From the IMG/VR virus record IMGVR_UViG_3300047276_000704, positions 1-41,920 of that record: a stretch of 41,920 nucleotides of DNA; one strand, 5' to 3'. The stretch is from a virus. Below are positions 1,849 to 5,032 of the stretch, piece after piece (the stretch's first letter is position 1; each line of letters starts with the position of its first letter). Both the position numbers and the translations under genes were made by a program. The notes under the pieces are model-generated. The model ran no database searches, was not told where the DNA came from, and saw only the letters and a list, made by a program, of their open reading frames with translations.

Positions 1849-2334
1849 ATGCAAAACTGGGTTCAGTCTTTAACCGAAAAAGACCGCGAATCTTTTCTTG
1901 CTTTTTGTAAACAAGTTAGTTCTCCAATTCAAATGTACCTGTATGCCCGGTTTTTAGGGTTTACAGGTACCATTGTGGAGTGCGACGAGTGGGCCAAGAA
2001 AGAGTTCAAAAAAAGAAATTTTAACGGAATCTTGGAGATGGAGATCGATGCCATGCAACAGGATATTTCCAAACTTCGAGATGCCATTGATCTTGGCATG
2101 ATCAAACAGGATATGGGTGCAGCCCGTATCGCCATGCTTCAAAAAGAGCTGCGAGGTTCAATCAAGCAACTTAACGATGAAAAGCACCTTACTGACAAAC
2201 AAGGATTAATCCTTGCTGGCGCCGATCGTGCTCTCAGAGAGATGCTGTTGATTTTCCGTGACGACCCGATCGAAGGACCACTTCAAGAAGCTTCGATGGG
2301 TGTGTGGACTAAGATCCTGCAAGAGGAGTCCTAA
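1849..2334 (+). CDS. Putative terminase small subunit
   Basis: 161-aa acidic, mostly helical protein directly upstream of the large terminase gene, the usual place for a small terminase. Residues 20-75 could form a helical DNA-binding region, and residues 60-130 look like a coiled coil. I do not see a diagnostic motif, so the call rests mainly on synteny, size and predicted helicity. The gap to terL is only 24 nt. Confidence 0.5.
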   Translation: MQNWVQSLTEKDRESFLAFCKQVSSPIQMYLYARFLGFTGTIVECDEWAKKEFKKRNFNGILEMEIDAMQQDISKLRDAIDLGMIKQDMGAARIAMLQKELRGSIKQLNDEKHLTDKQGLILAGADRALREMLLIFRDDPIEGPLQEASMGVWTKILQEES

Positions 2335-2340
2335 GGTTTG

Positions 2341-2360
2341 GTGCGCTAAGGTAAGCGCAT
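2341..2360 (+). promoter_or_regulatory. Start-codon hairpin presenting the terL ribosome-binding site
   Basis: TGCGCT (2342-2347) pairs with AGCGCA (2354-2359), and a G-T pair extends the stem. The loop AAGGTA holds the only Shine-Dalgarno-like sequence, while the first bases of the ATG at 2359 lie in the stem. The layout would expose the ribosome site and partly close the start codon, so it could tune terminase translation. The structure is read by eye. Confidence 0.45.
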
Positions 2361-4821
2361 GGCAGGGACTTCATTGTATTCCGTTTACCGCAGAACAGCA
2401 CGTGCTGCGGCAAAACAACAGGTTGTTAAAAACTCTACCGGCATTGACGTTGAAAAAGCGCGTGTTGATTTTGCTTATTTTTGTGATGTTGTTGGAGATA
2501 AGCCTCCTGCTGCACACCATAAAGAGTGGCATCGTTACCTCTGCACTGGCGACAATACTGAGTGTTTAATTGGGATCGGTGGACCAAATATTGACATCTT
2601 GGCTCCCCGAGGATCGGCCAAGTCGACCGTGCTTGGCCTATACACGGCCTGGTCTATTGGTGTACATGCTCTTCACAAAAAGCCATTAAAAATTCTTTAT
2701 ATCTCTTATACCGTTGATGTTGCACGGCCTAAGAGCGCTGCAATCAAGCGAATTATTGAAGAGAGCAAGACTTATAGAGAAATTTTCCCAATGGTTAAAA
2801 TTGCCAAAGGGATCAACTCCAACGAGTACTGGAGCATTGATTGGAAGTTTGCAGGGATTAAATCTACTGGTGAAGAAGAGTTTACCATTTGTTGTGCAGG
2901 TCTTAAAGGTGCAGTGACCTCGAAACGTTCACACCTTTGCCTAACAGGTGATACACTTGTCCATACCCAACGTGGCCCAGTCACCATCCATGACATTTAT
3001 CAAGCACCAGGAGATTATCAAGTTCCGACCCTTAACCCAAGAACTGGTCGCCTTGAGTGGTCTGGAATACGAGGAGTGTCTCGCCGCCTTACCGACCGGT
3101 TTGTCCACGTGGAAACAAGCCGTGGAGATATCTTACGGACAACCCCGGAACACCCTTTTTATATCCCCGGACGCGGGATCATTGCAGCCAACGATCTACA
3201 AGTCAATGACAAGCTCATTGAGCTTTCCAATTGCTTGCGGGGTTCAAATCAAAACAGTGTGTCCGCAGTGTTGGAAAGAGTTCCAGGTGAACACCAACTG
3301 GAGGCAGGTGTTATCCAAAAGCAAAGCCAAAATGTTTTGTTGCTCAAAGACTTGTTCGGGACTGGCAAAACAAACACTGAGTTCAAAAATCTGTCCAGAG
3401 TGTCTAACACTTTTTCGTCCGAAAAATCATCTACGACAGTGCTGTTCAAAGGCTTGCGCTACCAAAGCACATTCCAAGAAGATGCGTGGGAAAACAAACC
3501 CCCGCTGGAAACACGGCAACAGCAGACCAAACCGACCGGATTTGCGTCAAGCCGTCCTGAAACGCGACAGTATGCAATGTGCACTTTGCAGTATGCAGGA
3601 ACGCATGTTGACTGTAAAACAACAAGCAAACCGAAGCAGTTTGGTAGTCCATCATATCGATGCCAACCCGAAGAACAACGTGCTAACAAATTTAATTACC
3701 TTGTGCAGACAATGTCATGTGGGTTACCACCAATTAGCGGAGAAGGCAAAGATTTTGGAGTTACCGTTACCGCTATTTCAAGAACTTGCACTGAATCGGA
3801 GTATGTCTATGACCTTGAAACAGAATCAGAAAACCATAACTTCTTTGCGGGAAAAAGTGGATATTGTGTAGCAAATTGTATACTCGACGACGTGGTCAAG
3901 AGCGCCGATGATATTAAAAACCGTGACATTAGGCAAATGATGGAAGATAACTGGAACTCAGTTATTGTTCCAACTATGTTTGAAGGGGGCAGGGCAATCT
4001 GCCTTGGCACCAGGTTCCGCCATGACGACATTCACAACACAACCTTTACTCCTGTAAATGACTGGGTTCAAATCGTTCAATCCGCAATCACTGTTGATGA
4101 TTCAGGAGATGAGATTTCCTATTGGCCCGATATGTGGTCTTTGGAGTATCTGCAAGATCGGCGTCGTCAAGCTCCTATCAGTTTCAGTTTTCAGTATCAA
4201 AACCAAATTGTTCAGACCAGTGAACTATCGATCTCACCAGATCTGATTGTTAAGGGGCAGATTTCTACAGAATTTGATGCCCTTGGCATTGGAGTTGATC
4301 TTTCCGCTGGCGTCAGAGAAAGAAACGATTACACCGTAATGGTGTTGGGAGGCCGCGTCGGAGACAAAATCCACGTTATTGATTGCAAACGAATCCGAAT
4401 CATGGGGAACTTGGAGAAGTTGGAGTCCTTGATGGAAATGTGTTATGAGTGGGGCATTGTACATAAAGACGGAAACAATTATCACGCCAGCGGCAACAAC
4501 ATTGACGTGTGGTCTGAAGCGGTGGCCTACCAAGCTTCGCTAGAAGCAGACTTTAAACGTATCTGCCTCGGTGAGCACGGTCTTTACAACATCAATTGGC
4601 ATCCAGTCAAAGGGTTCCGTGGCGACAAAGTTGCGCGGTTTAGGGGGATTATGGGGCTTTTTGAGCAAAGAAAACTGGTTTTTAACAAATATCGTAAATT
4701 TCAAGCTCTTACCGATGAGATTGTAAACTTTGGAGTCAGCTCACACGACGACTGCGTCGACGCGTTAATTTGGCTCTGCAATGGTTTGATGACCAGAGGA
4801 AAACTAGAGTTAGAGTATTGA
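2359..4821 (+). CDS. terL: Large terminase (ATPase-nuclease) precursor with intein
   Basis: Packaging motor ATPase and headful nuclease. The 820-aa precursor is interrupted by a 313-aa intein (residues 194-506); the spliced protein would be 507 aa, normal for TerL. Walker A is APRGSAKST (residues 82-90). Walker B (LCILDD) forms only after splicing, because the intein sits inside it. The RNase H-like nuclease starts at GVDLSAGVRERNDYTV (about residue 643), and the C-terminal metal-binding aspartates lie in HDDCVDALIW. An AAGGT ribosome site precedes the ATG. Motor activity should require splicing, since the ATPase site is split. Confidence 0.93.
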   Translation: MAGTSLYSVYRRTARAAAKQQVVKNSTGIDVEKARVDFAYFCDVVGDKPPAAHHKEWHRYLCTGDNTECLIGIGGPNIDILAPRGSAKSTVLGLYTAWSIGVHALHKKPLKILYISYTVDVARPKSAAIKRIIEESKTYREIFPMVKIAKGINSNEYWSIDWKFAGIKSTGEEEFTICCAGLKGAVTSKRSHLCLTGDTLVHTQRGPVTIHDIYQAPGDYQVPTLNPRTGRLEWSGIRGVSRRLTDRFVHVETSRGDILRTTPEHPFYIPGRGIIAANDLQVNDKLIELSNCLRGSNQNSVSAVLERVPGEHQLEAGVIQKQSQNVLLLKDLFGTGKTNTEFKNLSRVSNTFSSEKSSTTVLFKGLRYQSTFQEDAWENKPPLETRQQQTKPTGFASSRPETRQYAMCTLQYAGTHVDCKTTSKPKQFGSPSYRCQPEEQRANKFNYLVQTMSCGLPPISGEGKDFGVTVTAISRTCTESEYVYDLETESENHNFFAGKSGYCVANCILDDVVKSADDIKNRDIRQMMEDNWNSVIVPTMFEGGRAICLGTRFRHDDIHNTTFTPVNDWVQIVQSAITVDDSGDEISYWPDMWSLEYLQDRRRQAPISFSFQYQNQIVQTSELSISPDLIVKGQISTEFDALGIGVDLSAGVRERNDYTVMVLGGRVGDKIHVIDCKRIRIMGNLEKLESLMEMCYEWGIVHKDGNNYHASGNNIDVWSEAVAYQASLEADFKRICLGEHGLYNINWHPVKGFRGDKVARFRGIMGLFEQRKLVFNKYRKFQALTDEIVNFGVSSHDDCVDALIWLCNGLMTRGKLELEY
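2938..3876 (+). other. Intein in the TerL Walker B motif
   Basis: Protein-splicing element encoded in the terminase frame. It begins with Cys (CLTGDTLVHT, block A) and has a block B (TTPEHPFYI) about 60 residues in. It ends with VYDLETESENHNFFA (block F) and CVAN followed by Cys+1 (block G). The penultimate residue is Ala rather than the usual His, a known variant. Splicing would join RSHL to CILDDVV, rebuilding Walker B. Between blocks B and F the terminase frame encodes about 180 residues with no endonuclease motif. The endonuclease lies in another frame (3257-3871). Confidence 0.88.
3257..3871 (+). CDS. HNH homing endonuclease nested out of frame inside the intein
   Basis: In the +1-shifted frame relative to terL, the DNA encodes a complete phage-type HNH endonuclease. 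Two zinc fingers come first (CPQC...CCSKTC and CPECL...CCSKAC), then KTNPRWKHGN, then CALC, LVVHHIDANPKNN, LITLCRQCH. Catalytic His codons lie at 3650 and 3653 and the zinc/final-His group at 3704-3718. The frame is open from 2948, but family-like sequence begins near 3250. GTG 3257 keeps both zinc fingers; ATG 3332 would cut the first. The true start, or a frameshift from terL, is unresolved. About the last 30 codons lie over intein block F. Confidence 0.8.
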   Translation: MCPQCWKEFQVNTNWRQVLSKSKAKMFCCSKTCSGLAKQTLSSKICPECLTLFRPKNHLRQCCSKACATKAHSKKMRGKTNPRWKHGNSRPNRPDLRQAVLKRDSMQCALCSMQERMLTVKQQANRSSLVVHHIDANPKNNVLTNLITLCRQCHVGYHQLAEKAKILELPLPLFQELALNRSMSMTLKQNQKTITSLREKVDIV

Positions 4822-4849
4822 CGATTTAAACTTATAAAATCACTCCGCA

Positions 4850-5032
4850 ATGTCTACCGGCTACTACATCATTGAACTAGATCAGGATGCATACGGGTCT
4901 GCCGTTGTGCCCTTACCAGACGAGCTCTGCCACGACATGGGCCTTGTCCCTGGGGAACGCTTTGACGTTGAAGTGGAAGATGATGTGATTACCCTTAAAA
5001 GGTTGCACGCCGGTTACGAAATTGAGGCATAA
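4850..5032 (+). CDS. AbrB/MazE-like swapped-hairpin protein, 60 aa
   Basis: Small acidic protein with the SpoVT/AbrB pattern: VPLPDELCHDMGLVPGERFDVEVEDDVITLKRL spans most of residues 20-53. It matches the beta-hairpin, short helix and GD/GE-turn of AbrB and MazE antitoxins, which bind DNA as dimers. No MazF-like toxin is adjacent. It sits alone between terL and portal, so it may regulate late genes or be a moron. The unusually acidic surface is odd for a DNA binder. Confidence 0.65.
   Translation: MSTGYYIIELDQDAYGSAVVPLPDELCHDMGLVPGERFDVEVEDDVITLKRLHAGYEIEA

Follow-up and report, generated by a model that had tools for sequence, protein, structure and literature searches.

How can one stretch of DNA within an essential terminase gene hold both an intein and an endonuclease written in another reading frame? 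The question is raised by IMG/VR record IMGVR_UViG_3300047276_000704, a virus record of 41,920 bases that is taken at full length and called the window here. Its gene for the terminase large subunit (TerL) is an open reading frame (ORF) at 2359-4821 on the plus strand, and it carries an insert of 313 amino acids (2938-3876) between RSHL and CILDD, the latter belonging to the Walker B motif. The nearest named relative of the virus is the Synechococcus phage S-EIVl (TerL, 49.5%; next large protein, 53%). A preliminary description, drawn from the letters of the DNA, had noted an intein in the TerL frame and an HNH endonuclease in a different frame across the same bases; this arrangement is real, and it is larger than first described. 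In our assessment the locus is very likely a composite homing unit in TerL, made of a mini-intein and an out-of-frame HNH gene that is started internally, so that one stretch of DNA would be kept to encode two proteins, of which the HNH product is predicted.

The identity of the insert in the TerL frame is clear. Its coordinates and a match to Pfam Intein_splicing (PF14890, E 1.4e-9) agree with the placement, in the preliminary description, of an intein with blocks A, B, F, and G at Walker B, and the same family is matched in 25 of 25 relatives. Residues C1, T69, H72, D292, N301, and N313 are invariant across these relatives, and Cys+1 is nearly so, with Ser in its place in locus L126. Block B of the window intein reads TPEH, block F is recognised, and the terminal N313 is followed by C+1. 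Intein-free TerL relatives join exactly at the insert boundaries, and of the first 80 loci, 73 are TerL relatives without an intein at the Walker-B site. In the AlphaFold model of the intein, the two splicing halves (residues 1-103 and 272-314) are confident and residues 104-271 are disordered, coinciding with the HNH core; the PDB matches of this model are inteins (HINT fold). With an exact in-frame joint, motifs A, B, F, and G, the nucleophiles, and the HINT fold all present, the insert is an intein, from which protein splicing of the TerL precursor is expected.

The second coding layer lies in the +1 frame, which is free of stops from 2945 to 3868 and terminates at the stop at 3869-3871; the +2 frame of the insert contains 20 stops, and the TerL frame is uninterrupted across the whole HNH region. 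The +1 frame matches HNH endonucleases in Pfam and PHROGs and comprises two zinc fingers and an HNH core, in which the metal and catalytic Cys, His, and Asn positions are invariant in 25 relatives. PDB matches of the core include IscB and McrA-type nucleases; a fold search with the HNH model gave weak matches for the HNH core only and none for the N-terminal extension.

To gauge the openness of the intein frame over the HNH gene, the HNH protein was held fixed and its synonymous codons were resampled from the TerL usage of the phage itself in 4000 simulations. Over the 170-codon HNH core of the window, no TerL-frame stop is present versus 12.4 expected (0/4000 simulations), in line with the earlier judgement that such an absence would be unlikely by chance. 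Each of eight cyanophage-type loci (the window and seven relatives) likewise has 0 intein-frame stops versus 8.8 to 20 expected (P < 1/4000 each), Gordonia phage Clown has 0 versus 5.1 (P 0.0035), and 38 representatives pooled have 0 across the HNH versus 367 expected; the loci are related, so that the per-locus values are not independent, and the inteins in the set span 34 to 65% G+C. Natural controls were provided by 96 other HNH relatives, mostly free-standing, which average 8.48 stops per 100 codons when read in the corresponding frame, versus 0 host-gene-frame stops in 10,330 HNH codons of 62 nested loci. The openness of the intein frame over the HNH is therefore not due to chance.

Substitution patterns identify which of the two frames is selected as protein. 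Between the window and L086, the exteins differ at codon positions 1, 2, and 3 by 0.13, 0.06, and 0.49, whereas the overlap differs at TerL-frame positions 1, 2, and 3 by 0.25, 0.06, and 0.04, the fast first position being the third base of the HNH frame. Of the 254 differences at the HNH third base, 240 are silent in the HNH frame, versus 102 of 158 in the same phase of the exteins (Fisher P 8e-15), and a comparison of substitutions by codon position in the linker segment shows no protein-level constraint beyond openness. Therefore, the HNH frame is under purifying selection as a protein, and the intein linker is kept mainly for the absence of stops, without further protein-level constraint. 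An intact HNH/zinc-finger motif under purifying selection is as expected of a homing endonuclease, and so are the sporadic distribution of the putative enzyme and its mobility with the host element at one site.

The layout is widespread. Seven IMG/VR relatives and S-EIVl share it with the window, and it is also found in Gordonia phage Clown, whose TerL is distant. A scan with the HNH alignment yielded 62 loci, and a second scan that included divergent members added 19 new contigs, giving 81 IMG/VR contigs, Gordonia phage Clown among them, in which the TerL-intein frame runs on without interruption and the HNH occupies its +1 frame. All nested loci occupy the TerL Walker-B site (...N | C...DD), and among the 81 contigs the HNH is never in the intein frame or in the other shifted frame. 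Relatives with the HNH in frame, which the preliminary description had named as a refuting finding, were searched for. None was found within the window's HNH clade, no member of which shares the frame of its intein, and the only in-frame HNHs are much more distant ones (L284, L290, and L313). The two isolate records examined (S-EIVl and Clown) annotate only the terminase under the match. The number of contigs, stop avoidance, substitution patterns, structure prediction, and the decayed copies treated below together bear out the earlier proposal of a free-standing HNH gene within a mini-intein that stays continuous.

Where the HNH begins was the part of the preliminary description that needed revision: its assignment of the HNH to the +1 frame holds (Pfam and PHROGs matches), but its extent of about 3250-3780 is probably too short, because the +1 frame looks constrained further upstream and the likely start lies there. 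The start is probably located further upstream than ~3250, inside the N-terminal splicing half, and the ATG at 2990 is preferred because four kinds of evidence favour it. Upstream of the HNH core, 46 of the 50 third-base differences of the +1 frame are silent (P 1e-4 versus exteins), with third-position change of only 0.06 to 0.11 at intein codons 36-71, in the N-terminal splicing half, versus 0.46 in exteins; +1-frame stops are depleted there, with 34 observed versus 131 expected across 38 loci; an ATG or GTG occurs in the +1 frame at intein offset 52 or 61 nucleotides (nt) in all nine loci first compared, L105 departing from this position with a GTG at 73; and, when the ORF is started at ATG 2990, AlphaFold confidence is moderate for residues 19-60. 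The dual-coding stretch is thus probably longer than ~3250-3780 and begins near this ATG. A start codon or ribosome-binding site directly before the zinc fingers was looked for across loci and is not conserved. In S-EIVl (L082), an HNH-frame GTG at intein offset 262 has AGGAG upstream at good spacing and is a candidate second internal start before the zinc fingers. For the cyanophage clade, we see an even chance that the HNH starts near intein codon 18 and that its N-terminal domain shares bases with splicing residues (codons ~36-95, including block B). If so, the double coding reaches beyond the floppy linker into folded protein, and each DNA letter there would serve both halves of a single selfish element, which would lock endonuclease and splicing together.

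Programmed ribosomal frameshifting (+1 or -2), which the preliminary description had kept as an alternative, would instead yield a fusion of the TerL N-terminal part, the intein N-terminal half, and the HNH. It draws on the same upstream openness: in several cyanophage copies the +1 frame stays open across almost the full intein, with stops upstream of the HNH numbering 0 versus 2.6 to 5.5 expected in seven cyanophage-group loci and 1 versus 4.5 in L007. In many lineages, however, the +1 frame is interrupted after the intein begins, by stops at offset 34 in L007, 49 in L105, 259 in L116, and 160 in L126, with ATGs thereafter, and internal ATGs with a good Shine-Dalgarno sequence are present in L124 (AGGAGG), L119, L116, and L126. 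When slippery sites were searched by eye, no conserved +1/-2 shift site was seen; the sole obvious slippery heptamer, CCCTTTT in block B, would shift ribosomes into the closed -1 frame. Because upstream +1 stops precede ATGs led by Shine-Dalgarno sequences, internal initiation is favoured, and frameshifting appears unlikely.

The distribution of the element suggests that it moves. Comparison of intein-free with intein-bearing TerLs, proposed in the preliminary description, gave not only the exact joint but also 44 intein-free TerLs that are nearer to the window extein than any intein-bearing TerL, the closest, L008, being 99% identical. In the nearest intein, L086, the HNH core is 92% identical and the extein 86.6% identical. 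Tree distances of the HNH and the splicing domains correlate at 0.75 in the cyanophage subset and 0.56 in the others, values slightly inflated by splicing segments that partly overlap the HNH core in some loci, versus 0.25 and 0.34 (cyanophage) and 0.06 and 0.06 (others) for the HNH and splicing domains, respectively, against the extein. L105 is a swap, with the TerL from one clade and the intein and HNH from another. Sequence comparison has shown the HNH and splicing domains to be inherited together and to move between TerLs.

HNH proteins often adjoin terminase genes and assist cleavage, and all nested HNHs of the clade are found in TerL, which would suit a packaging factor encoded within the gene that it serves rather than a homing enzyme. 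Yet very close relatives, with TerL up to 99% identical, are entirely without the HNH, copies with a broken HNH retain the rest, and the HNH co-varies with the splicing domain and not with TerL; a packaging role is accordingly quite improbable.

Decayed copies separate the two frames. In L106, a premature stop (intein offset 451) falls in the HNH frame only, and in L144 a 378-base deletion, a multiple of three, removes most of the HNH; in both, the intein frame is still open. These two copies show that loss of the HNH need not close the intein frame. They also bear on the idea that only the HNH frame matters and that the openness of the intein frame is accidental or splicing has ceased, the insert staying in the protein as in ShiLan. 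Such an insert would explain why the linker itself shows no protein-level constraint beyond openness, but it would break the Walker-B motif of an essential ATPase, and it fits poorly with catalytic intein residues that show little or no variation among very divergent phages, with Intein_splicing matches in every one of the 25 members, and with the splicing frame kept in HNH-decayed copies, which makes it very unlikely. An assembly or sequencing artefact, in which two compensating indels moved an in-frame HNH out of frame, is refuted by relatives with the same frame relation, which recurs in the 81 contigs from many datasets and in sequenced isolates with strong intein-frame stop avoidance, and its probability is negligible. 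A group I intron with an HNH ORF was also rejected, since a search of 2300-4900 against Rfam gave no match up to E 1 and the host frame is open throughout.

The composite unit, a mini-intein with an internally started HNH, would work as follows. TerL would be made as a precursor from which the intein is spliced out at the protein level, the splicing halves being joined by a floppy linker of ~168 residues whose DNA, read in the +1 frame, is the HNH. The HNH would be translated from its own internal start inside the N-terminal splicing half (in the window, ATG 2990), and it would cut intein-free TerL genes at the Walker-B site, whereupon repair would copy the whole unit. Selection then works in two ways: it preserves the protein encoded in the HNH frame, and in the intein frame it keeps the splicing residues at the ends and excludes stops between them. 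Splicing, translation of the HNH from the +1 frame, cleavage, and homing are thus predicted steps.

Several observations weigh against this scheme. The candidate start in the window has no Shine-Dalgarno sequence, although the same is true of several of the phage's predicted genes that were tested, and no one start codon holds throughout the nested family. Upstream of the HNH, constraint could in part act at the RNA level. Block G normally has His as its penultimate residue; in the window's clade this is Ala (VAN), whereas many others have His. Nucleotide identity with L008 reveals no clear co-conversion tract around the empty site, and we infer homing solely from distribution. The features of the locus are collected in Table 1.

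Table 1. Features of the TerL locus in the window (pLDDT, predicted local distance difference test)
Feature	Positions	Strand	Basis
TerL N-terminal extein, ATPase domain to Walker B	2359..2937	+	ORF 2359-4821; PHROG terminase large subunit matches
Intein, TerL frame, 313 aa, C1 ... N313 then Cys+1	2938..3876	+	Pfam Intein_splicing; conserved residues; exact joint in intein-free relatives
N-terminal splicing (HINT) half, residues 1-103	2938..3246	+	pLDDT mostly 88-97; PDB intein matches to residues 2-102; low third-position change
Intein-frame linker, residues 104-271, shadow of the HNH gene	3247..3750	+	Stop-free; pLDDT <50 over nearly all of 104-271
C-terminal splicing half, residues 272-313, blocks F and G, VAN then Cys	3751..3876	+	pLDDT 82-95; PDB intein matches from about residue 277
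Putative HNH endonuclease ORF, +1 frame, 293 aa, likeliest ATG 2990 to stop 3869-3871	2990..3871	+	Open +1 frame; ATG/GTG at matching offset
Zinc fingers and HNH catalytic core (CxxC pairs, HHID..NP.NN..N, CxxCH)	3251..3760	+	PF01844, E 1.1e-4; PHROG HNH, E 8e-10; invariant Cys/His/Asn
TerL C-terminal extein, remaining ATPase and nuclease domain	3877..4821	+	Pfam Terminase_6C; PHROG 38

Further inteins were seen in related TerLs. L290 (1352-4957) has a Walker-B intein with an in-frame HNH, that is, a canonical intein at the same site, together with an apparent second intein downstream. A second, different intein with LAGLIDADG-like motifs is present at TerL codons ~79-85 (Walker A) in L006 and L024, and L006 carries it alongside the Walker-B nested-HNH intein. 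In L119 and L132, another apparent intein start (CFHEDTL... and CLTGDTLV...) lies downstream of the Walker-B intein in the same TerL ATPase domain.

Among known systems, canonical inteins with an in-frame endonuclease (HNH or LAGLIDADG/DOD) share with the window the HINT domain, the C1/TxxH/N/C+1 residues, a site in a conserved motif, and a homing-type distribution. Unlike a canonical HNH-containing intein, in which the nuclease is part of the intein polypeptide, the window has its HNH in a separate +1 frame over the linker DNA, and its intein is effectively a mini-intein with a disordered linker rather than a full-length one. Mycobacteriophage TerL inteins, some of which splice and cut DNA experimentally, are likewise located in ATPase motifs of TerL, where they cluster; the passages searched of that source describe no out-of-frame endonuclease (PMC5050341). 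Out-of-frame HNHs are known from the ShiLan domain and the Pacc40 gp60 insertion in mycobacteriophage DNA methylases, which have no splicing domain (PMC11855218), and such insertions were noted again later (PMC12613952). As in the window, a zinc-finger HNH there lies out of frame in an open host gene with sporadic distribution (PMC11855218), but the window differs from ShiLan in a full splicing domain that would remove the insert from an essential protein, in the +1 frame, and in the spread of nested inteins over cyanophages, actinophages, and others. Two putative DNA methylases (DPPY) found here, L282 (2010-4517) and L289 (1980-4091), each have an HNH that lies in the other shifted frame without a surrounding intein; they are ShiLan-like in a third-frame phase. 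Group I introns with a free HNH gene are alike in placing a homing endonuclease gene with its own start inside a self-removing element; they differ in that the window element would be removed at the protein level, the host frame being read straight through.

A 2025 preprint by Gosselin, Arsenault and Gogarten reportedly treats actinobacteriophage inteins of "non-canonical architecture," as its title has it, and may overlap with the nested layout. It is cited for overlapping reading frames in actinophages in a passage of PMC11855218, and it may already describe out-of-frame endonucleases in inteins; by its title it concerns actinobacteriophages only, whereas the nested set is led by cyanophage-like and environmental viruses. 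Because of this preprint, we hold novelty to the variant and not to the category: in-frame HNH inteins and the hidden HNHs of ShiLan type are already known, and the overprinted HNH in an intein is a new, widespread variant. It represents a third, widespread way to pair a homing endonuclease with an intein, overprinted in the linker and neither fused nor absent, and an intein with a long linker that databases would class as an endonuclease-free mini-intein may conceal a mobile nuclease. The homing cycle is thereby testably split, since splicing and cutting could be mutated separately. The element also offers a natural system for the origin and persistence of overlapping genes, in which the constraint on the shadow frame is simple, namely, to stay open, and many independent copies are available.
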